Below are positions 3,849-21,718 of a stretch of 64,000 nucleotides of DNA, one piece after another. Source of the stretch: Pseudorhodoferax sp. Leaf267 (GTDB lineage Bacteria > Pseudomonadota > Gammaproteobacteria > Burkholderiales > Burkholderiaceae_C). The notes under the pieces are model-generated. The model saw only the letters and a program-made list of their open reading frames with translations, had not been told where the DNA came from and made no database searches. The position numbers and the translations under genes are program-made. The stretch covers positions 62,001-126,000 of the forward strand of contig NZ_LMMV01000005.1 in the NCBI RefSeq assembly GCF_001422405.1, in the 5' to 3' direction. Positions within the stretch are counted from its first letter, which is position 1. Every line of letters begins with the position of its first letter.

Positions 3849-3923
3849 CTCCTCGTAGTTCAATGGATAGAACGAGTGCCTCCTAAGCGCTAGATACAGG
3901 TTCGATTCCTGTCGAGGGGACCA
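3849..3923 (+). tRNA. tRNA-Arg (anticodon CCT)
   Basis: The cloverleaf folds by eye. The acceptor stem CTCCTCG pairs with CGAGGGG (one T-G wobble), the D stem GTTC with GAAC, the anticodon stem AGTGC with GCGCT around the loop CTCCTAA (anticodon CCT), and the T stem ACAGG with CCTGT; the CCA end is encoded. It reads AGG codons. The 3' end (bases 3905-3923) is the attachment core used by the adjacent integrase. The tRNA stays intact at the left end of the inserted element, but its terminator has been moved about 17.8 kb away to 21769-21795. Confidence 0.95.
3905..3923 (+). other. attL core, tRNA 3' end
   Basis: The 19-bp word ATTCCTGTCGAGGGGACCA forms the 3' end of tRNA-Arg and recurs identically at 21700-21718 in the same orientation. 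Integrases of the neighbouring type recombine at tRNA 3' ends, so this is the left attachment core. Confidence 0.92.
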
Positions 3924-4021
3924 AGTATGGGTCCAGGTATATCCACAGACGGCTAATGTTTTGGTTTTCTCGTTGGAAATCAATAATCTGCATGTCCAAG
4001 GTCGTCTAACACCATCCAACC

Positions 4022-4086
4022 AGATACCGTACAATTTTCGGTATCTCCTACGGTACGCCGGCCAGTACTGCAGTGGAGATACCGTA
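4022..4086 (+). repeat. Arm-type integrase-binding repeats, left end
   Basis: The 10-mer AGATACCGTA occurs exactly at 4022-4031 and 4077-4086. Between them TTCGGTATCT (4037-4046) is an inverted near-copy and TACGGTAC (4049-4056) a partial one. The inverse word TACGGTATCT recurs exactly at 21635-21644 near attR. Repeats flanking a recombinase gene and shared by both ends of an element are the expected layout of arm-binding sites, and these may also regulate the int promoter. Binding itself is inferred. Confidence 0.65.
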
Positions 4087-4098
4087 AATGAGGGCGCT

Positions 4099-5286
4099 AT
4101 GGGTCTGGTTGATACCTTTGTCCGGCAGGTCAAACATAGGGGCGCTCCTGCGGGCGAAAAGTACGCCGATGGAGGCGGCCTGTACCTGCATGTCAAGGCG
4201 GCCGGCAAGTACTGGCGCATGGACTACGCCTTCCTGGGCAAACGCAAGACCTTGGCCATTGGCGTCTACCCTGCCGTCTCCCTGCTGAAGGCCCGCCAGC
4301 GCCGGGACAAGGCCAAGGAACAACTGGCCGACGGCATCGACCCGAGCGCTGCCAAGAAGCAGGAGCGCAAGGCCGCCGTCGATGCTGCAACCAGCACCTT
4401 CGAGGTGATCGCGCGGGCCTGGCATAAGACAAACAAGGCCGAGCGCGGCAAGGTCACGCAGGCCAAGGTGCTGACCTGGCTGGAAAAAGATGTGTTCCCA
4501 ACACTTGGCGCGATGCCGATCAAGGCCATCTCGCCCCAGGACGTGCTTCAGGTCGCCCGTCGCATGGAGGCCCGCGGCGTTCAGGAGAGCGCGCACCGGA
4601 TCAGCCGGATCTGCGGCCACGTGTTTCGGTACGCCGTCGGCGAGGGCCTGGCTGACCGTGACGTCACGGCCGACTTGAGCGGCAACCTTGCGCCGGTCAG
4701 GAAGGGCCACTTCGCTGCGATCACCAAGCCCGAGCTGGTCGGCCCCCTGCTCCGCGCCATCGAGGTCTACGGCGGCCACATCTTCGCCGCGTCGGCGTTA
4801 AGACTGGCGCCGATGTTGTTCGTCCGGCCCGGCGAACTCAGGGCGGCCGAGTGGACAGAAATGGATCTCGACGCGGGCATCTGGGAGATACCGGCCGAGC
4901 GCATGAAGATGAAACAGGCGCATGTCGTGCCGCTGGCGACCCAGGCCGTTGCGATCCTTCGCAGGCTGCACCCGGTCACCGGCGAGGGCCGCTTTGTCTT
5001 CCCCAGCATCAGGACCGGCGAACGGCCCATGAGCGAGAACACGATAAACGCGGCGCTGCGTTCGCTGGGGTACGACAGCACAGTGATGACCGGTCATGGC
5101 TTCCGGGCGATGGCCAGGACCATCATGGACGAGGTGCTCGGCGAGCGCGTCGACCTGATCGAGCACCAGCTGGCCCACACCGTGAAGGACGCTAACGGGC
5201 GGGCCTACAACCGCACGGCTCATCTTGCAGCGCGGCGAGAAATGATGCAGCGGTGGGCCGACTACCTCGAAAAGCTGCGGGCGTGA
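4099..5286 (+). CDS. int: Tyrosine-recombinase integrase, P4/DUF4102 type
   Basis: Catalyses site-specific insertion and excision of the element at tRNA-Arg. 395 residues. The N-terminal DUF4102 arm-binding domain is marked by YADGGGLYLHV and the middle by the SAM-like core-binding region. The C-terminal catalytic domain contains R243 (in VRPGEL), H333-x-x-R336 (GHGFRA), H360 (QLAH) and Tyr370 (AYNR). I start at ATG 4099 (MGLVDTF), which gives the usual family N-terminus and has GAGGG upstream. A longer reading from 3961 would run through the arm-site repeats and adds non-homologous residues. It sits 175 bp from the tRNA, reading away from attL. Confidence 0.93.
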   Translation: MGLVDTFVRQVKHRGAPAGEKYADGGGLYLHVKAAGKYWRMDYAFLGKRKTLAIGVYPAVSLLKARQRRDKAKEQLADGIDPSAAKKQERKAAVDAATSTFEVIARAWHKTNKAERGKVTQAKVLTWLEKDVFPTLGAMPIKAISPQDVLQVARRMEARGVQESAHRISRICGHVFRYAVGEGLADRDVTADLSGNLAPVRKGHFAAITKPELVGPLLRAIEVYGGHIFAASALRLAPMLFVRPGELRAAEWTEMDLDAGIWEIPAERMKMKQAHVVPLATQAVAILRRLHPVTGEGRFVFPSIRTGERPMSENTINAALRSLGYDSTVMTGHGFRAMARTIMDEVLGERVDLIEHQLAHTVKDANGRAYNRTAHLAARREMMQRWADYLEKLRA

Positions 5287-5288
5287 CC

Positions 5289-5453
5289 AGAACACCGGCA
5301 TCAACTCGATCTGCGACAGCAGCGGCGGGTCACATTCGCCCACTACTACAAGATCAAAGTGCGCGACCGGCAGATGTTCAGCAACCCGCCGTGCAGATCT
5401 TCGAGAACAACTTCGACTACATCCGCGACGACTTCAAGATCACTAAGGACTAG
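5289..5453 (+). pseudogene. Broken coding remnant between int and cargo gene
   Basis: Two short protein-like stretches lie in different frames. VTFAHYYKIKVRDRQMFSN is readable from about 5327, and VQIFENNFDYIRDDFKITKD ends at the stop codon 5451-5453. Their aromatic and charged composition looks like real protein, and a one- or two-base shift near 5390 would join them. I do not recognise the family. It may be what is left of a gene lost when the neighbouring cargo gene arrived. Confidence 0.35.
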
Positions 5454-5454
5454 G

Positions 5455-5862
5455 TTGCGTAAATCGTCTTTTGACTTAGTTGACCTATCCAGCGAGACGC
5501 CCGCGCGCGCTTCGCTCGAAGATGCTGCCTTTCAGTTGCTGTGTCAGTATGCGCGCATGTTTTCCTCAGAAAACAACGACTTACGACGGTCTGGAGAGGA
5601 GAAGCTGAAGGAGATAGCGGCAATCTGGGCAGAGAGAAAAGGCGCTAGCCTGATCGGTCTGATGTTGAAGGAGAAGCAGAAGGAAGTGTTCGAAAGCAAG
5701 AACAACGACTACTTTCAGTTCCTCAATACCCAGCGAGGAGTTACCAATACAAAAAAGTTGGCAACGCTTTTGCAAAAACGCTTTGAAATCAACAGCTTCC
5801 GGAGCTGTGAGGATGTTGTGAGAGCGTGGAAGAAGAATTTACGTTCAGCGGGCGGCCCGTAA
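5455..5862 (+). CDS. Hypothetical cargo protein, low-GC
   Basis: 135 residues if started at TTG 5455, which follows AAGGAC; an upstream start at 5359 would read through the broken remnant. The protein is mostly helical and charged (for example KEKQKEVFESKNNDYFQF, then NTKKLATLLQKRF) with a C-terminal ARG/LYS-rich end. I see no recognisable domain, signal peptide or membrane segment. Base composition is clearly richer in A/T and codon use differs from every neighbour, suggesting separate and recent acquisition. Its place between int and the replication genes is a frequent cargo slot in satellites and islands. Function unknown; defence or regulation are possible. Confidence 0.6.
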   Translation: MRKSSFDLVDLSSETPARASLEDAAFQLLCQYARMFSSENNDLRRSGEEKLKEIAAIWAERKGASLIGLMLKEKQKEVFESKNNDYFQFLNTQRGVTNTKKLATLLQKRFEINSFRSCEDVVRAWKKNLRSAGGP

Positions 5863-5933
5863 ATCCGCCGCGCGCCAGCTCAAATTGCCAATGTGGCATC
5901 CCATATCATTTGGGCACCGTTGGACGACTTAAG

Positions 5934-6118: not shown

Positions 6119-6316
6119 ATGACCACTGCGACCCCCTCCCCCGTCACTGAAGACGCCATCCTGCGCGAGCCCAAGGTGCTCATGCGCTTCCCCGTCTCGC
6201 GCGCCGCCTGGTGGGCTGGCGTGAAGGACGGACGCTACCCAGCACCTGTGAAGCTGGGCCCGCGCAGCACCGGATGGCGCAAATCCGACATCGATAAGTT
6301 GATCGCTAGCCTGTAA
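6119..6316 (+). CDS. alpA: AlpA-family DNA-binding regulator or excisionase
   Basis: 65-residue winged-helix protein of the AlpA/MerR-like class. The C-terminal part shows the usual pattern: a helix-turn-helix (LMRFPVSRAAWWAGVKDGRYP) followed by PAPVKLGPRSTGWRKSDID. In P4-type elements and Gram-negative PICIs such proteins activate integrase or early genes and can be the target of helper-phage induction. It is the first gene of a plus-strand block that runs with overlaps to the terminase, so it probably controls entry into the replication cycle. The start at ATG 6119 follows AAGGCAAGTT, a weak ribosome site. Confidence 0.85.
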   Translation: MTTATPSPVTEDAILREPKVLMRFPVSRAAWWAGVKDGRYPAPVKLGPRSTGWRKSDIDKLIASL

Positions 6317-6328
6317 GAGGTGGCGCTC

Positions 6329-6544
6329 ATGAATAAGACCGGTCACGACGCGGTCAGCTCGACCGCACCCGCCGACAAGGATTTCCGCACGCTCCAGGCG
6401 CAATTCGCGCTCAAGGGCCACCAGCTGCACCGCACCGAGGGCGCCAAGCCTGAACTGTTCTGTACCCGCTGGCGCTTGGTCAAGCACTTGGACGACCTGG
6501 ACCACGCCCGCCGCTTCCTGGAACAGATCGGCGGTGGCCAGTGA
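6329..6544 (+). CDS. Small hypothetical protein upstream of replication gene
   Basis: 71 residues. I start at ATG 6329 because AAGAGGTGG lies five bases upstream; GTG 6320 would overlap this ribosome site. Its stop shares bases with the ATG of the next gene, so the two are translationally coupled. The sequence has a short Gly-x-His/Thr region (GHQLHRTEGAKP) followed by TRWRLVKHLDDLDHARRFLEQ, a helical end common in small proteins coded before satellite primases. No catalytic motif is visible; an accessory role in replication is an inference from position. Confidence 0.75.
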   Translation: MNKTGHDAVSSTAPADKDFRTLQAQFALKGHQLHRTEGAKPELFCTRWRLVKHLDDLDHARRFLEQIGGGQ

Positions 6545-8601
6545 TGGACGCGTTGACCCAATTCCGCGACGCAATGGTCGCGCGCGATCTGATCCCGCCC
6601 GACCGCATCGACGCCGACGGGCAGCTGCACCGCTGCGACGTGAAGGGCAAGCACGGCAAGAACGACGGCGCCTATGTCCTGCACCTGGACGGGATCCCCT
6701 GCGGCGGCTTCCAGAACCACAAGGACGGCCTGGACTGGCAGAAGTGGCGCGCCGATGTCGGCCGCGCACTGACCGTCGAAGAACAGGCCGCCGAGCGCGA
6801 ACGCATCGCAGCCATCCAGTCCCAGCGCGAGCGGGATGACGAGGGCCGCCGCCTGGCTGCATCCATCGAAGCATCCGGTCTGGTTGCCAAGTCCAAGGCC
6901 GGGGCGCCTGAGCACCCCTACATCATCAAGAAGGGCATCAAGTCGCACGGCCTGCGCATCGTCGGCGCCAATCTGATCGTCCCCGCCAAAGACGTGAACG
7001 GCAAGCTGCACACCGTGCAGCGCATCGGGCCGGATGGCAGCAAGCTGTTCCTTTCCGGTGGCCGCAAAACCGGCTGCATGTTCCTCATGGGGCGGATCTC
7101 TGACATCGTCATCGTAGTAGAGGGTTTCGCCACCGGCGCTACCGTCCGCGAGGCCACCGGGCATCCCGTCGCCGTGGCTTTCGATGCCGGCAACTTGACG
7201 CCGGTCGCTCTGGCGCTGCACGACAAGTACCCGGAGGCGCAGATCGTGATCGGTGCTGATGATGACGCCGGGACCGATGGCAACCCGGGCACCGCCAAGG
7301 CCCTGGAGGCCGCGGAGCGGGTGGGCGGCAAGGTGGTGTTGCCCAACTTCCGCGAGGACCGTCCGGCCGGCGCCAGTGACTTCAATGACCTGCACCTACT
7401 CCACGGCCTTGATGCCGTGCGGGCCTGTTTCGAAACCGTCGCAACGCCTGCGCAGCACAGCGTGATCTTGACGTGCGGCGCCGATCTGGTGCCGACTGCG
7501 GTCAGGTGGATGTGGCCCAACTGGTTGGCGCTTGGAAAGCTGCACATCCTGGCGGGGTCTCCCGGTCAGGGCAAGACAACGCTGGCAGTGACGATGGCTG
7601 CCACCGTGACCATCGGGGGCCAATGGCCCGACGGGTCCAGGTGCGATGCAGGCAACATCCTGATCTGGAGCGGCGAAGACGACGCGGCAGACACCTTGTT
7701 GCCGCGGCTCATGGCTGCTGGCGGCGACAAGCGGCGATGCTTTTTCATCACCGGCGCCAAGAGGGATGGCGAGGTCGTCCCATTTGACCCGGCGCGCGAC
7801 CTGGGGCAGCTGCAAGCAGCAATCCAGCGGATTGGTGGCATCCGCCTCCTGGTGGTGGACCCGGTAGTCAGCGCGGTCGCTGGCGACAGCCACAAGAACA
7901 CCGAGGTCCGCCGTGCACTACAGCCGCTGGTCGACCTGGCAGCAAGCTGCGACTGTGCGGTACTGGGCATCACGCACTTTGCCAAGGGCGGGCAAGGCAC
8001 TGATCCTGCGCAGCGCGTCGTCGGCTCAGTGGCGTTCGCCGCTGTTGCCCGTGTCGTGCTGGTGGCGGCCAAGGTACAGGGCGAGGAAGGCAAGGACACG
8101 CGCATCCTGGCGCGCAGCAAATCCAACATCGGCCCGGACGATGGTGGCTTTGAGTACCACCTTGAACAGACCGAACCACTGCCGGGCATCCATGCATCGC
8201 GCATCGCTTGGGGCAAGGCCGTCGAGGGCAGTGCGCGCGAGCTGCTGACCGACGTTGCAGACGAGGAAAGCCAGGCTGATGACCACAACGACGCAGCCGA
8301 CATGCTGCGCGCCGAGTTGTCGGCGGAGGTGTGGACCAATTCAAACGACGCGGCCAAGACGCTGAAGGACGCCGGCTTCAGCAAGAAGCAGATTTGGCAG
8401 GCAGGCAAGAAGCTGCACATCCTGCGCCAAAAAGGGACTGCGGGACCGCACGATGCCTGGTACTGGCGCCTGCCCAACTATCCCGGCAAGGCGTTCGTGA
8501 ACGGCCTGGAAGTCCAAGATTCCGCCCAAGGTTCCCAAGGTTCCACGTTCCGAGACGGGGAATCTTCGGAATCTTGGGAATCTTCGGAGGTGCGTGTATG
8601 A
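6544..8601 (+). CDS. Toprim primase / RecA-like helicase replication protein
   Basis: 685 residues. The N-terminal part resembles the zinc-less primase region of plasmid and satellite proteins. The Toprim domain has Glu193 in VVEGFATG and the acidic triplet Asp239-241 in IGADDDAG. A RepA/DnaB-like ATPase follows with Walker A GSPGQGKTT (338-346) and Walker B-like LLVVDPV. A C-terminal winged-helix-like segment (SNDAAKTLKDAGFSKKQIWQ) may bind DNA. It is probably the replication initiator and helicase of the element, comparable in role to P4 alpha. The last 30 codons are made of 9-bp repeats that may be its own binding sites. The next gene overlaps by four bases. Confidence 0.85.
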   Translation: MDALTQFRDAMVARDLIPPDRIDADGQLHRCDVKGKHGKNDGAYVLHLDGIPCGGFQNHKDGLDWQKWRADVGRALTVEEQAAERERIAAIQSQRERDDEGRRLAASIEASGLVAKSKAGAPEHPYIIKKGIKSHGLRIVGANLIVPAKDVNGKLHTVQRIGPDGSKLFLSGGRKTGCMFLMGRISDIVIVVEGFATGATVREATGHPVAVAFDAGNLTPVALALHDKYPEAQIVIGADDDAGTDGNPGTAKALEAAERVGGKVVLPNFREDRPAGASDFNDLHLLHGLDAVRACFETVATPAQHSVILTCGADLVPTAVRWMWPNWLALGKLHILAGSPGQGKTTLAVTMAATVTIGGQWPDGSRCDAGNILIWSGEDDAADTLLPRLMAAGGDKRRCFFITGAKRDGEVVPFDPARDLGQLQAAIQRIGGIRLLVVDPVVSAVAGDSHKNTEVRRALQPLVDLAASCDCAVLGITHFAKGGQGTDPAQRVVGSVAFAAVARVVLVAAKVQGEEGKDTRILARSKSNIGPDDGGFEYHLEQTEPLPGIHASRIAWGKAVEGSARELLTDVADEESQADDHNDAADMLRAELSAEVWTNSNDAAKTLKDAGFSKKQIWQAGKKLHILRQKGTAGPHDAWYWRLPNYPGKAFVNGLEVQDSAQGSQGSTFRDGESSESWESSEVRV
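8514..8586 (+). repeat. 9-bp iterons in opposed orientation, candidate replication origin
   Basis: Motif CCAAGRTTCC occurs at 8514-8523, 8526-8535 and 8535-8544 (the last two 9 bp apart), with a degenerate unit after them. The inverse GGAATCTTSG then occurs at 8559-8568, 8568-8577 and 8577-8586, again with 9-bp spacing. Repeats thus face each other around a 14-bp centre. They lie in the last codons of the replication gene and are read as tripeptide repeats (QGS, ESS). The same 10-mers recur at 18120-18129 and 18855-18880. Iterons in or beside the initiator gene are typical of satellite origins; function here is inferred. Confidence 0.65.
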
Positions 8602-8930
8602 CCGCCGACCGTGTCTGTAAGCTGGTGTTCGATGCCGGCATGACCATGCACGCCGATGGCGCCGAGCTCGTCCTGAAACCTGCTGCGAAGTTGACGGCCG
8701 AGCTGCGCGCCCTGCTGGTCAAGCACAAAGCCGACCTGCTCGACTTCATCCGCCAAGCTGACATGCTGACCGCGGAGACGCTGGCCCGCGCCATGGCCGT
8801 TTGCGACCGGCACGACGACAGCGACCAGGCCCGCGAGGACATGCGGCGGGAAGTGATCGAGACGCCGGCCCACTTGAAGGCTGATCTGCTGGAGCACTTC
8901 AGGCAGGCCTACCCTGGGCCAGGAGCGTGA
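8598..8930 (+). CDS. Small protein with TubC-N-like docking fold
   Basis: 110 residues. The first half (VCKLVFDAGMTMHADGAEL then LTAELRALLVKHKADLLDFI) has the strand-helix pattern of the TubC N-terminal docking domain: a one-turn hydrophobic helix, short strands containing G and L, then LTxELRxLLxxHKxxLL. That domain is best known from polyketide/peptide synthetases but is also common as a stand-alone small protein downstream of mobile-element replication genes. The second half is acidic and helical. The ATG overlaps the stop of the replication gene, and its strong ribosome site GGAGGTG is formed by the end of the iteron array. Role unknown. Confidence 0.7.
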   Translation: MTADRVCKLVFDAGMTMHADGAELVLKPAAKLTAELRALLVKHKADLLDFIRQADMLTAETLARAMAVCDRHDDSDQAREDMRREVIETPAHLKADLLEHFRQAYPGPGA

Positions 8931-9379
8931 GCGACGACTACGACTCCGGCCTGGTGCCCGGGCGCAATCCTTTCCTCGATCTGGTGGCCGACCCTGACCG
9001 CCTGAGCCACCGGGAAAGGGTCGATGTCGTGCGTCGCCTGGCCGGCCGCCTGCAGGCCGCTGCAGACCGCGAAACCGTGTGGTTCGGGCGCCGGCTCACG
9101 GCCTGGCTGTCCGGCCCGGCTGACGGCGATCTGACCGCGGCGCTGGGCCTGCGTCCACCACCAGGCAGCCACCTCACGGCGCCGGCCATCCTGTCGCAGG
9201 AGAAGCGGGACATTGCGCTGCTGGAACTGAGCATTGCAGCGGGCAGTTACCGGGCCGCGCTGCGCCTGCTGAAGAGCGGCGAGGTGTCGCCCGAGTGGGC
9301 CGACCTGGCCAACGACCCGCCACGCTCCGCAGCCGCTTTTACCCGCGCGCTCAAGCGTGTTTCGCCTCCTAACGGCTGA
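8927..9379 (+). CDS. Hypothetical satellite protein
   Basis: 150 residues starting at GTG 8927, overlapping the previous stop by four bases with AGGAGC as ribosome site. It is rich in Arg, Ala and Leu, with a predicted helical body (RVDVVRRLAGRLQAAADRET and LLELSIAAGSYRAALRLL). No signal peptide, membrane segment or known motif is seen. It closes the replication block; the capsid gene begins 71 bp later. It might link replication and packaging, but nothing in the sequence shows this. Confidence 0.7.
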   Translation: MSDDYDSGLVPGRNPFLDLVADPDRLSHRERVDVVRRLAGRLQAAADRETVWFGRRLTAWLSGPADGDLTAALGLRPPPGSHLTAPAILSQEKRDIALLELSIAAGSYRAALRLLKSGEVSPEWADLANDPPRSAAAFTRALKRVSPPNG

Positions 9380-9450: not shown

Positions 9451-10506
9451 ATGATCGAAGGCAATCAAGAACAACGCGGCCTGCTGGCACTTCGCGTGCT
9501 GCGCGCCCGGGCTGTTGGCCACGGCGACCCGGTGGCCGCCATGAGCTTCGCCCAGGCCAAGAGCCACTGGTCAGGGCATCAAAAAATCCTGCACTACATG
9601 ACCGGCAAAGCGGCGGTCGCGCCGGTCAACTCTCTGAACGCGCCGTTGATCAGCGAAGTCGGCTCCGACTTGCTGCTCGCGCTCAGGCCGATCACAGTGC
9701 TCGGCAAGCTCGGCGTCCGTCGCTTACCTTTGCGGACCAGGCTGCTGACCGGCTCACACGGCGCCGTCGCAAACTGGATGGCCGAAAGTCGGCCCATCCC
9801 CCTTACGCTCGGCTCGTTCTCGGCGCTTTCGCTCGATGGCCGGAAGATCGCGGCGCTGATGGTCGCCAGCAATGATCTGTTGCGCTCCGACCTGGTGGAC
9901 GTGGAACAAAGCCTGCTCGATGACCTGCTGGCAGCCTGCCGTCAGGTTCTGGACATGGCATTTCTCGATCCGCAAAACAGCGGCATCGTCGACGAGCGGC
10001 CGGCCAGCATCACGCATCCGTCCAGCGGCGGCGTCCTGATCAGCTCGACCGGCACGAGCGTCGGCGCGTTGGACGCCGACCTCAAGTCCGCCATTGCTGC
10101 CTTGCTGGCGGCTGGCTCTGACCTGTCGCGCGCCACTTGGGTGATGAGCCAATCCCTGCACTCCAAGCTGAGCCTAGTCCGCGGATCTGGCGGCGTGACC
10201 ATCTATCCCGGCTTGAGCCAACGCGGCGGCCTGCTGGCCGGCCTGCCGTGGATCGCATCGCAGAGCGCACCGACCAACATCATCAGCTTGATCGATCCGC
10301 AACACGTTGGCGTGTCGGAAGAAGAGCCCTACCTGTCCACGGCCAAACAGGGCGCAATCGACATGAGCTCGGCGCCTGGCGAACCATCGATGACCACGCC
10401 CGTGTCGTTGTTCCAAAGCGAATCAACCGCGCTCAAGGCCGTGCTCAATGTGGACTTTGTGGCACGTCGCCCGAGCGCTGCGACCGTCACGGGAGTGGGC
10501 TTGTGA
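9451..10506 (+). CDS. HK97-family major capsid protein
   Basis: 351 residues. It resembles the HK97-type capsid fold region from about residue 50: LRPITVLGKLGVRRLPL, an E-loop-like segment, WMAESRPIPLTLGSFSALSLDGRKIAALMVASNDLL, a spine helix (ALDADLKSAIAALLAAG), and a C-terminal beta part with VKSEST-like QSESTALKAVLNVDFVARRP. It would form the icosahedral shell. The N-terminal about 45 residues could be the scaffolding-like delta domain removed by the protease. The ATG at 9451 has no clear ribosome site, so a start at 9541 is possible. Unlike ordinary phages, the gene lies upstream of the protease and terminase. The next gene overlaps by four bases. Confidence 0.85.
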   Translation: MIEGNQEQRGLLALRVLRARAVGHGDPVAAMSFAQAKSHWSGHQKILHYMTGKAAVAPVNSLNAPLISEVGSDLLLALRPITVLGKLGVRRLPLRTRLLTGSHGAVANWMAESRPIPLTLGSFSALSLDGRKIAALMVASNDLLRSDLVDVEQSLLDDLLAACRQVLDMAFLDPQNSGIVDERPASITHPSSGGVLISSTGTSVGALDADLKSAIAALLAAGSDLSRATWVMSQSLHSKLSLVRGSGGVTIYPGLSQRGGLLAGLPWIASQSAPTNIISLIDPQHVGVSEEEPYLSTAKQGAIDMSSAPGEPSMTTPVSLFQSESTALKAVLNVDFVARRPSAATVTGVGL

Positions 10507-11648: not shown

Positions 11649-11649
11649 C

Positions 11650-11826: not shown

Positions 11827-11961
11827 AATCAAGCCCGCGTTTGGGCCTTCGAGAGCCGGCCCGTGCCGGTGGTTAGGAGTGGACCGCCCGCGATGGGGCA
11901 CACCACAGCCCACGCGAGCACTGGTATCGGTGGTGGGCACCCTCATTCAAGAAAGCGAAAC

Positions 11962-15439: not shown

Positions 15440-16153
15440 TTAGACCACTCCGAAAGCCTGCCAAGTGCGCCACGCGCACACCGATGCAGCGCAAATTCCG
15501 GCGATCCAGGGATAAAAAATGGCAAGGCTGGCCTTTGCATACGTGAGAAGAAAGCAGGCAACCGTTGAATTAAGGAAGTGCCTGACGACAGGTGGCATCG
15601 GACATCTGATCACCGTCTCAGTTGTGACCGTACCCCCACCGTTCGGCTTCATCACATCCAAATCGACTTTGGCAATTTGTGTACCTGGCCCCCAAGCGCG
15701 CTCATCGCGCCCATCGTCGCTGTAGGCCACGATTGCGCGCCGGACCTTGATGTGGCGCTTAGCAGTGCCCAGTTCCTTGAAGAGGATCTCGAAGTGCAGC
15801 GAATCGCGCAAAGCTGCCTTGATAACCGGCGGCGTGTACTTCCATTTTCGGAGAACGAACGACTCAATGGACATCCAACGTCGAAAGTGCAAGTTCCGAA
15901 GCCTTGCTGCCTCCTTGCGCATCTCTTCCACTGAAGTTTCGTGCGAGCCTGAGAATCGAAATCTCAAGGCGAAATACAGCAGCGCTGCGCTCGTGGCCAC
16001 CCACACGCGCCACTCGAAGGCCGTAGACACGTCTCTCAAGCCAAGCAGTTTCTCGAAAATGCTTTGCGCCGGCAGCTGCAGCCACCACACCAGCAAAATG
16101 ACTGTGCTTACCGCGATGAAGTTGCGGCGCGCCTTGGTGTCCTCGTCGTCCAT
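15440..16153 (-). CDS. Putative membrane protein, unknown
   Basis: 237 residues from ATG 16153 (MDDEDTKARR); a longer start at 16171 is possible. Two membrane segments lie near the N-terminus (VSTVILLVWWLQLPA and WRVWVATSAALLYFALRF). A central soluble part follows (RHIKVRRAIVAYSDDGRDERAWGPG and DLDVMKPNGGGTVTTETVIRC), and at the C-terminus two further segments (VACFLLTYAKASLAIFYPW and IAGICAASVCAWRTW). It lies antisense to the head block, beside the terminase, where phages carry morons. A role in superinfection exclusion or defence is possible but not shown. Family not recognised. Confidence 0.6.
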   Translation of the reverse strand: MDDEDTKARRNFIAVSTVILLVWWLQLPAQSIFEKLLGLRDVSTAFEWRVWVATSAALLYFALRFRFSGSHETSVEEMRKEAARLRNLHFRRWMSIESFVLRKWKYTPPVIKAALRDSLHFEILFKELGTAKRHIKVRRAIVAYSDDGRDERAWGPGTQIAKVDLDVMKPNGGGTVTTETVIRCPMPPVVRHFLNSTVACFLLTYAKASLAIFYPWIAGICAASVCAWRTWQAFGVV

Positions 16154-16196
16154 GGTTCCTCCGGCGCGCACTGTAGCGGAGCCGGATGACCGAGGC

Positions 16197-16526
16197 TCAG
16201 GAGCGCCTCAGCCGCTTTCTGCTTGGCAGGTGCCGCCCTGTTGACGTGGGCGGGTTCACGATCATGTCAATGCCGAAGTCGGCAGGGACCTCGGCTGTGG
16301 CTTCGGCCAACATCTTGGCCCATTCCGCTGGGTCAAGGCCGGTTGCCTCGTTCAATGCCGCGACTTTGGCGAGGAATGCTTCATGCAACTTGAAGTAGTC
16401 CACAAGCAGCGCTGCCGGCGGGTGCCGCCCAGCGCGAAAGTACGCTTCGGTCTGCGAGGCCGCGGCATCCACCTTGTGCAGCAGTTCGTAGACCTCAGCG
16501 CGCAACTTGTCTGCGTCAGTCTCCAT
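16197..16526 (-). CDS. Small hypothetical protein, helical
   Basis: 109 residues from ATG 16526 (METDADKLRAEVYELL); the frame is open further upstream but without a good start. It is mostly helical: the N-terminal heptad-like part is followed by HPPAALLVDYFKLHEAFLAKVAALNEATGLDPAEWAKMLAEATAEV. The product is rich in Ala, Leu and Glu, with no membrane segment. It lies 43 bp before the membrane-protein gene on the same strand and may form a unit with it. No function can be assigned. Confidence 0.6.
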   Translation of the reverse strand: METDADKLRAEVYELLHKVDAAASQTEAYFRAGRHPPAALLVDYFKLHEAFLAKVAALNEATGLDPAEWAKMLAEATAEVPADFGIDMIVNPPTSTGRHLPSRKRLRRS

Positions 16527-16647
16527 GCAACTCAGAATAGACCGCAGCCGCGCAGTTGCAAGTCTCGTTCGCGGCCAGGCTCGGAGCCCTGACCGATGTA
16601 GGCTCACTGTTGAGCCCACGTCGGCCGCTTCAGTCGGCCTGCTCGCG

Positions 16648-16875
16648 CTATGCCGTGGCGCGCAGCGCGCGGACGGGATCTTCCAGACCCGGCACCAGCT
16701 CCAGCGAGTCCAGCGCCAGCAGCAGTACCGACGGACGCATGCGCCGCGCGTCGTGCATCTCCAGGAGGTGGTCTAGGAGGTCGCGCGCAAGCACGCGCAG
16801 TTCATCCGTCACGCCGGCATCAGCGACGATGCGGCGGCAGCGGACAAGCGCATCCCGTGTTGCTGGCGAGTGCAT
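16648..16875 (-). CDS. Small hypothetical protein
   Basis: 75 residues from ATG 16875 (MHSPATRDALVRCRR); ATG 16893 would add six residues. An amphipathic helical pattern runs through the middle (LRVLARDLLDHLLEMHDARRM then LLALDSLELVPGLEDPVRAL). An overlapping plus-strand frame has a far less protein-like composition and is rejected. It is the first of three minus-strand genes downstream of TerL. Function unknown. Confidence 0.5.
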   Translation of the reverse strand: MHSPATRDALVRCRRIVADAGVTDELRVLARDLLDHLLEMHDARRMRPSVLLLALDSLELVPGLEDPVRALRATA

Positions 16876-16971
16876 CAAGCAAATATAGCCCACGGCAGCA
16901 CGTCCACTTCAGCAGGGCGGCAGTGCTTACCCTGAGCCCCGACAGCCCTTCCACCGCTGGACAATGCCCAC

Positions 16972-17247
16972 ATGGACGACTATCCGCGCATGCTGTACCG
17001 ACCTGGCACGGGCCCCTCAGAGTTATGGGGCGCCTTGGTCGATAAAGCCATCGTGAACAACGCACAAGAAGAAGCCGAGCACCGTCGCCGTGGCTGGCTA
17101 CGTGAGCCCGTCGTGGCGGTCGCGCGCGCGAAGCGCCAACAGGCCACTAGCACCCGGTGGCGCTGGTTTTTAGGGCACTGGCAGTTCTGGATTACGACGG
17201 CAATAGCACTGTGCACAGCGGTGGTCGCGTACCTCGCGCTTGGCTGA
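16972..17247 (+). CDS. Small tail-anchored membrane protein
   Basis: 91 residues. The N-terminal soluble part begins MDDYPRMLYRPG, then a basic helix (EEAEHRRRGWLREPVVAVARAKR). One C-terminal membrane segment (FWITTAIALCTAVVAYLALG) suggests a tail-anchored inner-membrane protein. DYPRMLYRPG openings occur in small proteins of prophages and other mobile elements of proteobacteria. ATG 16972 is preceded by AATGCCCAC without a clear ribosome site. A 7-bp inverted repeat (GCCCCAC, GTGGGGC) just downstream may end transcription. Confidence 0.6.
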   Translation: MDDYPRMLYRPGTGPSELWGALVDKAIVNNAQEEAEHRRRGWLREPVVAVARAKRQQATSTRWRWFLGHWQFWITTAIALCTAVVAYLALG

Positions 17248-17449
17248 CCAGAATTAGGCTTAGCGGCCCCACGAGCAATTTGGTGCACTGGTGGGGCAGC
17301 TTTCAGGACCCCGCTCTGATCGTCGACCCCTTTTTGATTGTTTGATTTCCTGCTCTGCAGAATGCTAACTTTTGCTAATGGCTCCGCAGCCTTCACACAC
17401 CCCGGCCCCTGCGCATGCGACGTGTGCGAGTTTTGTGATGTGGCGTCGA

Positions 17450-17468
17450 AGTGCATTAGATTTGCACT
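17450..17468 (+). promoter_or_regulatory. Inverted repeat directly before a small gene
   Basis: AGTGCA (17450-17455) and TGCACT (17463-17468) form a perfect 6-bp inverted repeat that ends at the ATG of the following gene. In this place it would sequester the start or serve as an operator. No further support. Confidence 0.3.
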
Positions 17469-17687
17469 ATGTCGCTCACACTGCTGAAGCGGCTTGCAAC
17501 GTCAGCGCTGCCCTACCGCACGACCGAGCAATCCGAAATGTTGCACATCGCTGTGCTGCGCGCCTCCAAGTTGGTCGAGGCCGACCTGCCGCCCATGAAG
17601 GACCATCTGTACGTTGGTGAGGCTGTCGTCTACTCCATCACAAAAAATGGCCGAGCTCTCGCGACAGTTAGCCAGCGAAGGGGCTGA
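17469..17687 (+). CDS. Small hypothetical protein, possible regulator
   Basis: 72 residues from ATG 17469, immediately after the inverted repeat AGTGCA/TGCACT. The sequence has a helical first half (TEQSEMLHIAVLRASKLVEADL) and an ending (AVVYSITKNGRALATVSQRR) that resembles the wing strand of small winged-helix regulators, where ITxxGRAL is common. That similarity is weak and is pattern-based only. The next gene on the plus strand is over 1 kb away. Confidence 0.45.
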   Translation: MSLTLLKRLATSALPYRTTEQSEMLHIAVLRASKLVEADLPPMKDHLYVGEAVVYSITKNGRALATVSQRRG

Positions 17688-17736
17688 CACTGACAGCACT
17701 CATGCAGCGCACCCGCCATGGCTACCGTAGGCCGGT

Positions 17737-17946
17737 TCACAACCAAGGCTTTTGGGTATCGGCCTTCGCAAGCCGCACCATCTCGCGCTGCCTGGCAGAC
17801 GCTTCAACACGCAAATCTGCCGCTCGGTCGAGCTGCTCCTGCGAGGGATTTCCGCCTTGGCGGATCAATGCCGAAATCGCGTCCTGGGCAACTGAAGCTA
17901 GGTGCTCAGCTTCTTGCCACTCGTGAAATTTTTGTAGTCCTGCCAT
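17737..17946 (-). CDS. Small hypothetical protein
   Basis: 69 residues. The start ATG at 17946 is well supported: TTGGAGGTG stands five bases upstream. It is helical and charged (FHEWQEAEHLASVAQDAISALIRQ then QEQLDRAADLRVEASARQREMVRLAKAD). No domain recognised. It is the last gene in a row of small minus-strand frames between 18746 and 17737, which may be a unit of accessory satellite genes. Confidence 0.6.
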   Translation of the reverse strand: MAGLQKFHEWQEAEHLASVAQDAISALIRQGGNPSQEQLDRAADLRVEASARQREMVRLAKADTQKPWL

Positions 17947-18200
17947 GTGGCACCTCCAAACGGGGTGCGCTCAGATGACGTAGCAGCCAGGGCACGACGG
18001 AGGCTGCGCGCCCACTCTACGCTTTCTCCAACAGGACAGTTGCCCAGATTCTCGACCGCTGCAGCCCTTTCGTCAGTTTTGGCAGTGCCTACACAGGGAG
18101 CTTTGTGAAGAGCGCAGGCCCAAGATTCCGCCCGCACGTGGTTGGCGAATACTTCAGTCAAGCAAGCTGGGTCGCTCGGAGGGGCCTGCCAACATGCCAT
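17898..18200 (-). CDS. Possible small protein overlapping the next minus-strand gene
   Basis: 100 residues at most. The central part reads like protein (ANHVRAESWACALHKAPC, then DERAAAVENLGNCPVGESVEWARSLRRALA). Its end overlaps the well-supported gene at 17737-17946 by 49 bp, more than usual here, and the start is unclear. It may be a degraded or shorter gene. One copy of the CCAAGATTCC motif (18120-18129) lies within it. Confidence 0.35.
   Translation of the reverse strand: MACWQAPPSDPACLTEVFANHVRAESWACALHKAPCVGTAKTDERAAAVENLGNCPVGESVEWARSLRRALAATSSERTPFGGATWQDYKNFTSGKKLST
18120..18129 (+). repeat. Single iteron-like motif
   Basis: CCAAGATTCC, identical to the unit at 8514-8523; the match extends to CCAAGATTCCGCCC at both places. 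It stands alone here, without facing copies, 700 bp from the second cluster. It could be coincidence or a stray binding site of the satellite replication protein. Confidence 0.35.
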
Positions 18201-18229
18201 CGGAGCCTGAGGCAGTGCACCGATCGCAG

Positions 18230-18421
18230 TTATTTCAGTTTTAAAAGTTCGATCAACTGGCGCAACTGTGCTTCCGCATCATCGCGCTGGCGCTTCAGCT
18301 CCGCGATCTCGTGCGCCGAGTACAACCGGCCGCAATCAACAGCCGCGGCGTGAGCGGCGGCAGCATTCCGCGCGCGGGCTTGGGCTTCCTGCAAATCAAA
18401 AGTTGGGGGATTGTGTGCCAC
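18230..18421 (-). CDS. Small hypothetical protein, coiled coil
   Basis: 63 residues from GTG 18421, chosen because GAGGAG lies about seven bases upstream; ATG 18472 has no ribosome site. The opening HNPPTFDLQEAQARARNAAAA is followed by a short coiled coil with charged heptads (AHEIAELKRQRDDAEAQLRQL). No other motif. Part of the row of minus-strand small genes. Confidence 0.55.
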   Translation of the reverse strand: MAHNPPTFDLQEAQARARNAAAAHAAAVDCGRLYSAHEIAELKRQRDDAEAQLRQLIELLKLK

Positions 18422-18560
18422 GGGCGCACTCCTCGGTGAAGGTGGGCTCAGCTTCCGTGGCAGCCAAGGCACGAAGGAAGCTGCCTGTTAAGTCTCTCAT
18501 GGCCGCGCTGATCGCGCTACATCAAATGTCACAGCTAAGGCTTGGAAAGCCGCAAGCGCT

Positions 18561-18746
18561 TCAGATATCAAGCTTCGATCTGTAAACCGCACGGAGCTTT
18601 ACCAGGACTTCTTCCTCAAGCGCAGCCACGTCCGCAAGCATCTCGGGCGGCACAGGCAGCTCCGCTAGGCTCAACTGAGCTACCCGCTCGTGCGCAGCCC
18701 GCAGCCGCCGCACCGCATCCCCCCACTCGCGCATTTTTTGATCCAT
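18561..18746 (-). CDS. Small hypothetical protein, coiled coil
   Basis: 61 residues from ATG 18746 (MDQKMREWGDAVRRLRAAH). It is helical throughout (LADVAALEEEVLVKLRAVYRS), with no ribosome site clear enough to fix the start. The open frame upstream to 19070 crosses the second iteron cluster and is not protein-like, so I leave it out. It is probably the first gene of the minus-strand row. Confidence 0.5.
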   Translation of the reverse strand: MDQKMREWGDAVRRLRAAHERVAQLSLAELPVPPEMLADVAALEEEVLVKLRAVYRSKLDI

Positions 18747-18830
18747 GGCCGATTCTGTTGGCGCTACGTCGCTCCGCTTTTGTCGGCGCCCGCCTGTCAC
18801 GGTTGACCGACGCACGCCCAACATTCCGCC

Positions 18831-18880
18831 CCAAGGGTCCAGACTGCCAACGTCGGAATCTTGGCTTCTTGGAACCTTGG
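18831..18880 (+). repeat. Second iteron cluster, crr-like
   Basis: GGAATCTTGG (18855-18864) and GGAACCTTGG (18871-18880) are exact inverses of the units in the 8514-8586 array. CCAAGGGTCC (18831-18840) is a one-mismatch copy in the opposite direction. The arrangement, forward unit then inverted units, repeats that of the first array. An A/T-richer stretch follows (about 18885-18970), the kind of sequence that opens easily. Separated initiator-binding clusters are known from phage P4 (ori and crr). Confidence 0.55.
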
Positions 18881-18972
18881 CGGTTCTTGTTGCAGCTTTA
18901 GAAAGCGAAAGTCGCAACCCGGGACTATGAAAAAGTAAACACGCATCCTCAAAAACGTGTACGATTCCAGAC

Positions 18973-19164
18973 ATGGAGAAGAAGTCAACTGTCGGCGGCG
19001 CAAGGCCTGGTTCGGGGCGTAAGCCAATCCTTGAGGGGGAGCAGACCGTACCAGTAACGGTCCGCCTCACGCCACCTCAGCGCGACAAGCTGCAGCGCTT
19101 AGGCGGGGCTCCTTGGATGCGCAAGACGATAAGCAAGGCGAAGGAGCCCACGCCGAAAGAATGA
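18973..19164 (+). CDS. Small basic protein with GARPGSGRKP motif
   Basis: 63 residues from ATG 18973. The opening GGARPGSGRKP is a basic, glycine-rich hook seen in small DNA-binding proteins of phages and plasmids and also in TerS. It is followed by TVPVTVRLTPPQRDKLQRLGG, which resembles a ribbon-helix-helix strand and first helix. A short DNA-binding protein is likely; an autoregulator of the following operon is possible. It stands 90 bp after the second iteron cluster and reads in the direction of the attR-side operon. Confidence 0.7.
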   Translation: MEKKSTVGGARPGSGRKPILEGEQTVPVTVRLTPPQRDKLQRLGGAPWMRKTISKAKEPTPKE

Positions 19165-19278
19165 ACCTCGATGGCCTGCCGGGGAAAACGCAGGCCACAA
19201 AGGGCGACGGCCACGGATGTATCAGATCCGCAGCCGTCTAACCACAACGTGCAACCGTCTTAAAGGAATCAGCACACC

Positions 19279-19536
19279 ATGGCTATCCCAAGTATCGCCT
19301 CTAACGCCGCGCCCACTCATCCGCAAAGCGCAGGACACGCGCCGCGCTGCACTACCGCCGACTTCTCCACCTGGCTGCGCGCCAAGCAGCAGGCCGCCCT
19401 CGACGGCATGCGCACCACCACGGGCGCCGAGTTCACCAAGCACTGCGACGCCTTCCAGAACGTCACCACGGCCATCAACGTGCTGTGGAATTTCGAAGTC
19501 GAAACCGACATGGCGGCAGCCCGGGGTGCAGCATGA
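19279..19536 (+). CDS. First gene of the attR-side operon, hypothetical
   Basis: 85 residues from ATG 19279, with AAAGGA upstream. The middle (CTTADFSTWLRAKQQAALDGM) and end (FQNVTTAINVLWNFEVETDM) look like a compact helical protein. No known motif. The gene begins a chain of seven plus-strand genes in which each start overlaps the previous stop (ATGA), indicating one mRNA with coupled translation. Function unknown. Confidence 0.7.
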   Translation: MAIPSIASNAAPTHPQSAGHAPRCTTADFSTWLRAKQQAALDGMRTTTGAEFTKHCDAFQNVTTAINVLWNFEVETDMAAARGAA

Positions 19537-20240
19537 CCAGCATCACCAAGACCGAGCGCCCTTTGTACGACGAGTACACGGGCAAACTCGATGACCTGAT
19601 CGCGGCCGGACTGGTCCGCACCGATCAACTGCCGCCGCTGGGCAAGGCGTCCGTGTCGTACAGCCACGGCAGCGTCCAGCGGCGCCGCTGCCCGATGGAC
19701 GAGCACTATCTGCGGGTCGTGCGCAACCTGGATGGCACGTGGTCTGTGCAGGTCGGCATCACGGCACAGATCGCCGCGCCACGCAAGGCCGCTCAGCGCG
19801 CCGCCAGTGCAGCCAGGGAGCGCGAGCGTCAGGCCCGCTGGAACAAGCAGGAGCGCGCGCGCAAGCAGGTCGAGTTGGACCAAGCGGCTGCGCTTGCACG
19901 GCGCAATCTGGCGAGCGTGATCAAGTCCGAAACAGCCTACCGTCGGTATCTCGTGGGACGTCTGCGAGAAATGACCACCCTTGTGACCGACAGCGCGGCC
20001 GAGCCTGCGACCTGGCACGGCTACCGCCTTACTGAGGAATCGCGTGACGCCATCGTGATCGCAACCGATGCCCTCGCGGAGGCAGTGCTGCAGGCTGATG
20101 TGATCTTTGACCAACAGGTGCACGACAAGATCATCGCCAGCTATCGCGCCACCATCAGGGCAGCAGATCCATCGTTCGCCATGCAGCTGAGCGCATTGGT
20201 GCAGCCCAACCCGGCCATCCTGCAGGGAGAGGCATCATGA
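19533..20240 (+). CDS. Hypothetical protein with basic coiled coil
   Basis: 235 residues from ATG 19533, which overlaps the previous stop; an upstream start at 19485 is rejected. A short N-terminal domain (ERPLYDEYTGKLDDLIAAGLV) is followed by a beta segment (HYLRVVRNLDGTWSVQVGITA). A basic coiled coil (KAAQRAASAARERERQARWN and following) and a helical C-terminal domain come next. It is the largest protein of the chain. No family recognised; structural or DNA-binding roles are possible. Confidence 0.7.
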   Translation: MTSITKTERPLYDEYTGKLDDLIAAGLVRTDQLPPLGKASVSYSHGSVQRRRCPMDEHYLRVVRNLDGTWSVQVGITAQIAAPRKAAQRAASAARERERQARWNKQERARKQVELDQAAALARRNLASVIKSETAYRRYLVGRLREMTTLVTDSAAEPATWHGYRLTEESRDAIVIATDALAEAVLQADVIFDQQVHDKIIASYRATIRAADPSFAMQLSALVQPNPAILQGEAS

Positions 20241-20575
20241 GCCGCCGTTGCAAGCCCGGTCAGCGGGCGCGGGTCAAGGAGACTGGTCAGATCGTGCTGG
20301 TCGTCGGCCACTACTTCGAACGCATGAAGTGGGGCGGCGATGACAGGTGGCACATCGACTTCTTTCCGTGGCGAGTGCTGTCGCTGGGCACGCCGTTCAC
20401 CATCATTAGCGCAAAGACTGGCGCCTTTCTGACAAAGTCCATGTACTGCGTCATTGACGACAGCGAACTTGAACCGCTGGAGGACGACGACGACGGTCTG
20501 AGCCGCAGCACCGAAAAGGGCAAACCCGTGCAGAAGCCCCGCGAAGAAGCAACGGCGACAGGAGGTGCAGCATGA
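20237..20575 (+). CDS. Hypothetical protein, SH3-like beta pattern
   Basis: 112 residues, ATGA overlap, ribosome site GGGAGAG. The first 75 residues alternate short strands (CKPGQRARVKETGQIVLVVG, then FFPWRVLSLGTPF) and resemble small beta-barrel proteins coded in phages and plasmids. The C-terminal 35 residues are acidic and disordered (ELEPLEDDDDGLSRS). No catalytic motif is visible. Role unknown. Confidence 0.68.
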   Translation: MSRRCKPGQRARVKETGQIVLVVGHYFERMKWGGDDRWHIDFFPWRVLSLGTPFTIISAKTGAFLTKSMYCVIDDSELEPLEDDDDGLSRSTEKGKPVQKPREEATATGGAA

Positions 20576-20826
20576 GTGCCGCGCTTTTCACTCTGCCCAC
20601 CTCGCAAGCGGCCCCTGTCAAGCAGTCGCTCAGGCGTGGTTGCCTGCCCGAAGGCGTCTCAAGCATCTGGCAAGGCAGGGTGCTGCGCCAACGCCAAGCG
20701 CAGCATGAGGCCAATCGGCAGCGTTATACCGCTGATGCCATTGCGTTTGCCGCTGGCTACAACCAGGCCGACGCAGACCTGAGAGCCCGCCGCGCAGGGC
20801 GGTTGCCGCAAGGTGGTGCAGCATGA
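20572..20826 (+). CDS. Paralogue A of an IWxGRxLR small protein
   Basis: 84 residues, ATGA overlap with a strong ribosome site AGGAGG. Residues 22-40 read RGCLPEGVSSIWQGRVLR. The same pattern, RGxxPxGVxxIWxGRxLR, followed by a helix rich in Gln and Arg, appears in the gene at 21101-21403, so the two are related. The basic helix after the motif suggests nucleic-acid binding, but no family is known to me. Confidence 0.68.
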   Translation: MSAALFTLPTSQAAPVKQSLRRGCLPEGVSSIWQGRVLRQRQAQHEANRQRYTADAIAFAAGYNQADADLRARRAGRLPQGGAA

Positions 20827-21104
20827 CCACGTCGACCAAGCAACAGCCCGTCGAAATCTCATCGGCGGCACTTGAAGCGCTTCACCTTAGCCAGCTGGTT
20901 GAGTGGGTGATTCAGGCCAGTACGGTCCTCAATCAGATCGACGCAATCGCCAACGGACACGGCGAGCTTTTCCAGCTGCTGCAGAAGTGCAGCGTTCGCT
21001 ATGGCACGCCGGACTGGGAAGCCAGCGAGATGGAGTCAGGGTTGTCCTTCGTTCTGCATCGCCAGCGCCAACTGATCCAGCAGATTGCGGAGGGCAAGCC
21101 ATGA
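20823..21104 (+). CDS. Hypothetical protein, helical
   Basis: 93 residues, ATGA overlap. It is made of two long helices (LEALHLSQLVEWVIQASTVL and MESGLSFVLHRQRQLIQQI), linked by GHGELFQLLQKCSVRYGTPDW. No signal or membrane segment. It lies between the two paralogous IWxGRxLR genes and may act with them. Confidence 0.65.
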   Translation: MTTSTKQQPVEISSAALEALHLSQLVEWVIQASTVLNQIDAIANGHGELFQLLQKCSVRYGTPDWEASEMESGLSFVLHRQRQLIQQIAEGKP

Positions 21105-21403
21105 TGCCGATCGACAGCCCTATGGTCGCTGCCTTCAAGGAGGAAGTAGAGCGGCAGCGGCGGGTGCAATCGCCCTGCAACGTCATCCGCTTGAGCACCG
21201 CTGCGGCGCAGCCTCCAGTTCAGCCAGCCAGGCGCGGCCGGTTCCCCAAAGGCGTAGTCCCGATCTGGAAGGGCCGGGCACTTCGCAATGATCGCGAAGT
21301 GCGTAGAAAGCAGATTGAGAGACGACACGGCCTCATAGAGGGCTGTCTCATGTCAGCTGCGGCCTACCGCGCCGAGATCGCGGAACTGGAGGCAAGGCAA
21401 TGA
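21101..21403 (+). CDS. Paralogue B of an IWxGRxLR small protein
   Basis: 100 residues; ATG 21101 overlaps the previous stop and follows GGAGGG. Residues from about 45 read RRGRFPKGVVPIWKGRALR, the same core as in the gene at 20572. The C-terminal helix (EVRRKQIERRHGLIEGCL, then AYRAEIAELEARQ) is strongly basic and then acidic. The two copies probably arose by duplication, as their flanks differ in length. Confidence 0.68.
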   Translation: MMPIDSPMVAAFKEEVERQRRVQSPCNVIRLSTAAAQPPVQPARRGRFPKGVVPIWKGRALRNDREVRRKQIERRHGLIEGCLMSAAAYRAEIAELEARQ

Positions 21404-21609
21404 TCGCCGCGCCCATGGTGCCCCTGCTGCAGCACGCCGGCTGCACCGACCAGTGCGGCACGTTCCTGCCCGAGGACGACGGCCCGCCCGTGCTGGTGGT
21501 GGGATCGCTGGCCAGCCCCGAGCGCATGGCGGCGCTCGCACGGCGCCACGGCCTGGAGGTCGACACGCTGCTGGCCTCCGCGACCACCGGCATAAGGAGG
21601 GGAACATGA
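21400..21609 (+). CDS. Last gene of the attR-side operon, hypothetical
   Basis: 69 residues, ATGA overlap with ribosome site GGAGG. Contains PVLVVGSLASPERMAALARRHGLEVDTLL, a small alternating strand-helix fragment, after a Cys-containing start (HAGCTDQCGTFLP). Too short to assign. It ends 90 bp before attR, and the arm-type repeats lie between. Confidence 0.62.
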   Translation: MIAAPMVPLLQHAGCTDQCGTFLPEDDGPPVLVVGSLASPERMAALARRHGLEVDTLLASATTGIRRGT

Positions 21610-21623
21610 TGACCGAAAGAAAC

Positions 21624-21644
21624 ACGGTATCAATTACGGTATCT
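21624..21644 (+). repeat. Arm-type integrase-binding repeats, right end
   Basis: TACGGTATCT (21635-21644) is the exact inverse of the 10-mers at 4022-4031 and 4077-4086. ACGGTATC (21624-21631) is a second, shorter copy eleven bases upstream. Their presence just inside both ends of the element supports a role as arm sites of the integrase. Confidence 0.62.
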
Positions 21645-21699
21645 GACCGCGTAAAATTCCCAATCGCCAGCAATGGCGCGGCTTTCCAGGCACCTTGCT

Positions 21700-21718
21700 A
21701 TTCCTGTCGAGGGGACCA
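21700..21718 (+). other. attR core
   Basis: Identical 19-bp copy of the tRNA-Arg 3' end at 3905-3923, without the rest of the tRNA. It marks the right boundary of the element; normal chromosome resumes at 21719. Confidence 0.92.

Follow-up and report, generated by a model that had tools for sequence, protein, structure and literature searches.

A probable phage satellite in Pseudorhodoferax sp. Leaf267 with capsid and packaging genes and no detected portal gene

Capsid-forming phage-inducible chromosomal islands (cf-PICIs) are defined, in the description drawn on here, by genes for capsid, protease, portal, connectors, TerS, TerL and HNH (PMC10690885). The phage-inducible chromosomal islands (PICIs) of Gram-negative bacteria are described as having four zones (integration, Bro, replication and late) and as capturing clusters of late genes from helper phages; the late zone most often holds a capsid gene, as reported for 21 of 29 reference Gram-negative PICIs, the section that gives this count not stating whether a portal accompanies it (PMC10111431). 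The window analysed here is a stretch of 64,000 nucleotides from Pseudorhodoferax sp. Leaf267 (contig NZ_LMMV01000005.1, 62,001 to 126,000), a genus placed by NCBI taxonomy in the Comamonadaceae, Burkholderiales. It holds an element of 17,814 bp at tRNA-Arg(CCT) (3905-21718), within the 10-20 kb size of Gram-negative PICIs, which is very probably an intact satellite of the Gram-negative PICI type. The balance tips slightly towards reading its late zone as a shell-and-packaging set lacking a portal, with the satellite shell assembled on the portal of a helper.

The last 19 bases of tRNA-Arg(CCT) (3849-3923, ARAGORN) form the attachment core attL at 3905-3923 and are repeated exactly as attR at 21700-21718, and no other exact repeat of at least 12 bases was found between 3781-4080 and 4101-40000. 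All genes of the element lie on the plus strand unless stated otherwise. A tyrosine integrase (4099-5286, with 4099 the more likely start; PF22022, PF13356, PF00589, phrog_1) reads into the element and is accompanied at the same end by an AlpA-type excisionase/activator (6119-6316; PF05930, E 1.6e-8), as is expected of Gram-negative PICIs. As is also expected of these islands, a replication zone with a Toprim and AAA_25 primase-helicase (6541-8601; Toprim_3+AAA_25, PF13362 and PF13481) is followed by a late zone with a capsid gene. The first-pass annotation had proposed a 17.8-kb element at this tRNA gene, with integrase, AlpA, Toprim-helicase, capsid, protease, HNH, TerS and TerL; the perfect att repeat supports its extent, and Pfam and PHROG matches back each of the named genes.

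The late zone contains both a capsid and a head maturation protease, together with TerS, TerL and HNH, all of which belong to the defining set of cf-PICIs. The HK97-type major capsid protein (9451-10506, 351 amino acids, aa) matches the Phage_capsid family of Pfam (PF05065) at E 5e-14 and phrog_617 at E 4e-26, and its structure model (pLDDT 62) finds its best Foldseek matches in the capsids of Bxb1, a gene transfer agent, the cf-PICI EcCI2 and HK97, at E 2e-9 to 3e-6. The prohead protease (11959-12576), 71% identical to that of the P. aquiterrae locus, matches phrog_617 (E 7e-29) and phrog_80 (E 1e-24), with Pfam S78 under its cut-off. The HNH endonuclease (12830-13183) is recognised by phrog_2323 (E 6e-34), with Pfam HNH under its cut-off. 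The terminase small subunit TerS (13328-13684) matches phrog_641 at E 2e-18, and the large subunit TerL (13681-15375, 564 aa) matches phrog_9 at E 4e-112, its Pfam nuclease domain scoring over the cut-off and its ATPase domain under it. Directly 5' of the capsid gene lies orf150 (8927-9379), helical in its structure model, for which no family match and no fold match at E 0.001 or better was found. It stands in the same position in several of the related satellites, and no profile match to it was obtained in L014, a cf-PICI-like element from another genus of the family, or in the scanned phage-type loci.

No portal, connector or lysis family was matched in the element by Pfam or PHROGs, as the first-pass annotation had held, and connectors might hide among the small genes. 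All open reading frames (ORFs) of at least 300 aa with a positive coding score in the element are accounted for by the integrase, the Toprim-helicase, the capsid, the gene after the capsid and TerL, leaving no unassigned coding ORF in which a portal of that size could lie. The gene after the capsid (10503-11648, 381 aa) has a fibre-like C-terminus, and its PHROG tail-fibre match (E 3e-8) is the only tail-type label in the element. It was considered as a cryptic portal and is probably not one, because its homologue in P. aquiterrae is only 223 aa long and aligns only to approximately residues 157-377. Small genes of related loci labelled as portals (phrog_1289, phrog_2271) were likewise not taken as such, since they match only the last 50-70 residues. 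Because no portal was recognised, the element does not fit the cf-PICI definition, although its gene plan resembles one; and since neither portal nor connector was found, the earlier suggestion that it makes its own heads is not supported.

The relatives of this capsid place the element in a wider group. A three-sequence capsid profile, run on 399 genomes of the same family, matched 17 genomes and gave 19 loci (the capsid gene of G003, split into two halves at contig ends, being counted as one locus), of which 10 lack a portal, 2 are integrase loci with a portal and a tape measure and 7 are phage-type. The ten portal-less loci are the window, P. soli C13, P. aquiterrae, G099, G205, G228, G282, G295, G321 and G385. 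In the stretch examined at each, every positively scoring coding ORF of at least 300 aa could be assigned to an integrase, replication (including a topoisomerase-like protein), the capsid, TerL, a tape measure or the gene that follows the capsid in the window. In all ten the capsid gene lies 3' of replication genes and an integrase is nearby, those of P. soli being on the opposite strand just upstream; the boundaries of the P. soli locus were not found.

An att repeat was detected in seven of the ten, and in six of these it lies at a tRNA-Arg, tRNA-Ser or tRNA-Thr gene. In addition to the window, these are P. aquiterrae (18 bp, tRNA-Ser), G228 and G205 (both 14 bp, tRNA-Ser) and G385 and G282 (both 11 bp, in the 3' part of tRNA-Thr); the repeat of G295 (19 bp) has no tRNA found with it, and G321, G099 and P. 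soli yielded no repeat. Away from tRNA genes, the shorter of these repeats would carry little weight. A common att core at tRNA-Ser(GCT) is shared by L014, which has a portal, and the portal-less element of P. aquiterrae (L009/L010). The finding of portal-less, capsid-related loci at different tRNA sites agrees with the satellite status proposed in the first-pass annotation, and the closest relatives by capsid are portal-less loci with replication genes and an integrase, rather than the full prophages that it had named as the result that would overturn its proposal.

Wider samples (399 genomes of the order and 398 of the phylum) added 15 loci, 8 of them portal-less and 7 phage-type. A genome-wide search for PF04860 in the seven genomes that hold the eight portal-less loci gave one match, on another contig of G496. 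An integrase match is present in six of the eight (L142, L143, L149, L152, L153 and, in part, L140) and in neither L144 nor L150, the latter a 9.9-kb contig; the capsid match of L153 is weak. A further weak locus, L040, from a Chloroflexi metagenome-assembled genome, was not classified. L038 (Phyllobacterium sp. KW56), labelled as a phage in the capsid tree and kept outside the satellite count, has a capsid of the same type, no portal detected and a next gene with a fibre-like domain. An additional contig scan with the capsid returned six loci, namely P. aquiterrae, P. soli and four distant ones, and a capsid search of plasmids gave 129 records, of which two among the 20 listed were inspected and both had phage-type gene sets.

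Together, the 12 family and 8 wider satellite loci number 20, of which 18 have no portal. Seven of them carry a tape-measure gene, measuring 1477 aa in P. aquiterrae, 971 in P. soli, 727 in G099, 744 in G499 and 829 in G927, with two weaker matches in G293 (881 aa and a cut piece); those of G499 and G927 were detected by PHROGs, our own profile having missed that of G927. In the window itself none was detected. A TerL match occurs in only two of the 20, the window and G321, where it is N-truncated (371 aa) and near a transposase gene, and profile searches found no locus among the 20 with both TerL and a tape measure. These relatives suggest a swappable slot in the late zone, with a tape-measure gene where others have terminase genes.

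If the element works as a satellite that supplies shell and motor, a tailed helper phage would turn on AlpA, after which integrase and AlpA would excise the element and the Toprim-helicase, to judge from its families, would replicate the satellite DNA. The satellite capsid, cut by its own protease, would then build a shell around the helper portal; HNH, TerS and TerL would pick out the DNA of the satellite and pump it in by way of that portal; and the connectors and tails of the helper would complete the particle. Our guess for such a helper would be a phage of the same broad capsid type, for example PAJU2 or IME307. A broader reading, which we consider rather unlikely, is that a wide and so far scarcely described group of Pseudomonadota satellites swaps single virion parts instead of whole heads, keeping the shell constant, mostly using the portal of the helper and adding either TerS-TerL or a tape measure; if this were true, the late zone would be a slot for exchanging virion parts one by one with helpers.

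The capsid and packaging genes of the window appear to differ in history, because TerL is 64.5% identical to that of IME307 over its full length and the capsid only 29%, below the minimum of 38.0% found between phages with similarly close TerL. The other genes compared with IME307 are HNH (50%), protease (45%) and TerS (43% over 63 aa). Identity pairs were drawn from the 73 of 95 loci that have TerL, capsid and protease: in 193 phage-phage pairs with TerL at 55-70%, the capsid identity has a median of 57.5 and a minimum of 38.0, and the three pairs of the window in the same TerL band have capsids at 32.8, 34.2 and 34.9. Because the pairs share members, and so are not independent, and capsids under 36% identity are rare (they occur in 16 of the 2556 phage pairs, and TerL reaches 50% in none of these, divergent capsids being thinly sampled), this comparison is a description and not a test, and these limits count against the shell-and-packaging reading.

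Further points weigh on the same side. The capsid model is only moderate, with TM-scores of up to about 0.6 for the best matches. PAJU2 (L056) and IME307 (L168), both Pseudomonas phages, are 99.4% identical in their capsid fusion and 91.6% in portal and only 23% in TerL, and among the 241 phage pairs whose portals share 60% identity or more, TerL falls below 35% in 181. On these identities, phages of similar portal thus exchange their terminases freely, and the idea that the terminase was kept phage-like by its fit to the helper portal was dropped. Since phages with alike portals often have unrelated TerL, the TerL of the window, itself 25% identical to that of PAJU2, does not identify the helper. 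Genome-wide searches of the host found no other PF05065 capsid and no PF04860 portal, a result that in itself counts for the reading; with it, no resident HK97-type helper phage was found among these families, which counts against it. An empty attachment site was also not found: the right flank had no match in the 6-6.5 kb taken from each of five other Pseudorhodoferax genomes. Finally, two of the 12 family satellite loci do carry a portal. Both (L042 and L043) lie about 58 kb apart on contig C12 of G293 and have an integrase, a capsid, a portal, a tape-measure-like gene and no TerL match, the lack of TerL in L042 being insecure as it is cut by the contig end; their portals are 97% alike and their capsids sit on separate branches of the capsid tree.

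In that tree, 11 phages form a clade of modest support (84/83) to which none of the 10 portal-less and 2 portal-bearing satellites belongs; a single origin of the satellite capsids is neither shown nor excluded by it, and the window pairs with P. aquiterrae at 100/99. The loci of G282 and G205, from one genus, share capsids (96%) and proteases (99%) despite integrases only 32% identical and different tRNAs, and the capsid and protease modules therefore move. Selection on capsid and protease is purifying in this pair (dN/dS 0.15 and 0.09, respectively), which counts for the shell-and-packaging reading; the helicase, at 0.65, is a further point against it.

Among the alternatives, the one that survives best is a redirection of the helper capsid of the kind performed by Ccm in SaPIbov5, in which the satellite capsid would join that of the helper, for example in pentamers, and force small heads on the helper portal. 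This is unlikely but has several parallels in its favour. Ccm is a capsid homologue of 355 aa, 24% identical to that of its helper, sits in pentamers and was the only SaPIbov5 protein found in particles, and no protease is known from SaPIbov5, as far as the source goes (PMC8569155). The capsid of the window is likewise 351 aa long and about 29-31% identical to phages of its type, and four of the portal-less relatives (P. soli, G228, G295 and G321) have no protease match. The window, however, also has its own protease, TerS, TerL and HNH. SaPIbov5 is not known to carry TerL or HNH genes either.

It is also improbable, in our view, that the late genes are captured backup or cargo of little use and that the particles are mostly made by the helper. 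Removal of the capsid gene of EcCICFT073 is reported to have left its transfer unaffected (PMC6092414), a result that bears against the shell-and-packaging reading as well, elongated PICIs are described as capturing late-gene clusters (PMC10111431), and a difference in history between capsid and terminase would also fit. However, even relatives at only about 30% identity have kept their capsid genes intact, and these genes show purifying selection in the one close pair tested and hold their place 3' of the replication genes throughout the ten portal-less family loci.

That the element is a cf-PICI which lost its portal and connectors is quite improbable. The gene order of L014 is capsid-protease-portal-HNH-TerS-TerL, which without its portal is that of the window (capsid-protease-HNH-TerS-TerL), and the two share a related helicase (68%) and orf109 (45%; 8601-8930 in the window). 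The order capsid before protease and terminase, observed correctly in the first-pass annotation, is therefore not the distinctive feature it was taken for. However, the capsid of the window is of another type, 23% identical to that of L014 over 167 aa, and its portal-less relatives are diverse, so the portal-less state is not recent.

Phage loci are organised otherwise. In the best 80 of 572 capsid relatives in IMG/VR, a protease lies upstream of the capsid in 73 and a portal downstream of it in 68, the 12 contigs without such a portal ending within 2.1 kb of the capsid and having the protease upstream. Six of the seven phage-type family loci have the order TerL-protease-capsid-portal; in G246, the remaining one, and in three wider phage loci, whose capsids are more distant, it is TerL-portal-capsid; and PAJU2 and IME307 have TerL, a protease-capsid fusion and a portal. 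No residual genes in phage order were found in the element, and a remnant of a full prophage, which would find its best argument in the relatives of capsid, protease, HNH, TerS and TerL that all occur in the one phage IME307, is highly improbable, because no simple deletion of either phage order yields capsid-protease-terminase, the att sites are perfect, AlpA and a Toprim-helicase are present, and portal-less relatives occupy other sites. The first-pass annotation had left the choice between a new lineage and a decayed prophage; the portal-less relatives speak for a lineage of its own, and decay falls away. Two of the 68 IMG/VR contigs, L078 and L084, were counted although their portal follows a second capsid gene: they hold two capsid-like genes with an integrase-like match between them, the second capsid, before the portal, being N-truncated, and are possibly satellites embedded in a helper capsid gene, as described in PMC10111431.

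The remaining genes of the element are mostly small. Between the integration and replication zones, the place of the Bro zone in Gram-negative PICIs, lies orf167 (5362-5862), in a stretch of lower GC, which had no Pfam or PHROG match over the cut-off, and between AlpA and the helicase lies orf74 (6320-6544), homologous to genes of the P. aquiterrae and P. soli loci. The Cys-rich orf86 (12573-12833), between protease and HNH, is 63% identical to its counterpart in the P. soli locus. The genes of Gram-negative PICIs mostly share one direction; here the left 11 kb and the right operon are on the plus strand, the block between them being on the minus strand, and six pairs of neighbouring genes in the element overlap by four bases. 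A block of small ORFs on the minus strand (15440-19070; 243, 140, 81, 69, 80 and 169 aa) sits between terL and the attR-side operon of seven small overlapping genes (19279-21609), so that the large attR-side operon noted earlier is present, set apart from terL by this block. For the 81-aa ORF of the block (16648-16893), a homologue at 60% identity occurs in a P. soli prophage whose capsid is of the same type. The operon includes two paralogues (20572-20826 and 21104-21403), 39% identical over 67 aa, which score 97 where 500 shuffles reached no more than 45. PADLOC, applied to ten genes, nine of them outside the head module, gave one weak CARF match (E 0.015). The capsid-size and activation genes of P4 are Sid, Psu and Delta; no such label appeared in the Pfam and PHROG scans of the window proteins, which included no search aimed at them. 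The IMG/VR contig IMGVR_UViG_2643221797_000001 (15,438 bp) carries the genes of the element from int to orf85 at 100% and is possibly from the same genome.

No account of satellites with capsid and terminase but no portal surfaced in our literature search, nor one of satellites in Burkholderiales. AH14b, a Pseudomonas satellite, has the same backbone of integrase, AlpA, Toprim primase and helicase, but neither structural nor terminase genes were found there by its authors (PMC4936722). SaPIbov5 is alike in encoding a capsid homologue, there used with helper head proteins, and differs in that no protease is described there (PMC8569155). Like the PICI-like elements (PLEs), seven of the relatives found here possess a tape-measure gene, whereas PLE11 particles hold helper capsid proteins and the relatives carry their own capsid gene (PMC12987554); the window itself differs from PLEs in having no detected tape measure. 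The first report of tape-measure genes in satellites, as its authors describe it, dates from 2026 and concerns PLEs and, according to an extended figure legend, some cf-PICIs (PMC12987554); the seven loci extend that report.

With cf-PICIs, the element shares its own capsid, protease, HNH, TerS and TerL, the gene order of L014 and the absence of recognised tail and lysis genes, but not the portal or recognised head-tail connectors that their description includes. With Gram-negative PICIs such as EcCICFT073 and PmCI172, as these are described, it shares integrase and AlpA, a replication zone, a capsid-bearing late zone and a length of 10-20 kb (PMC6092414, PMC10111431), and it differs in joining capsid, protease, HNH, TerS and TerL and in its host, a genus of Burkholderiales. 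The element thus stands between two known strategies, that of classic PICIs, which use helper heads, and that of cf-PICIs, with complete heads of their own. If shell and motor do come from the satellite and the portal from the helper, it would offer a natural system in which to ask which of the contacts between capsid, portal and terminase have to match. Gram-negative PICIs, on the published description, often carry a capsid gene, and the element is therefore not a new kind; its best place is among the Gram-negative PICIs, as a member whose late zone is enlarged.

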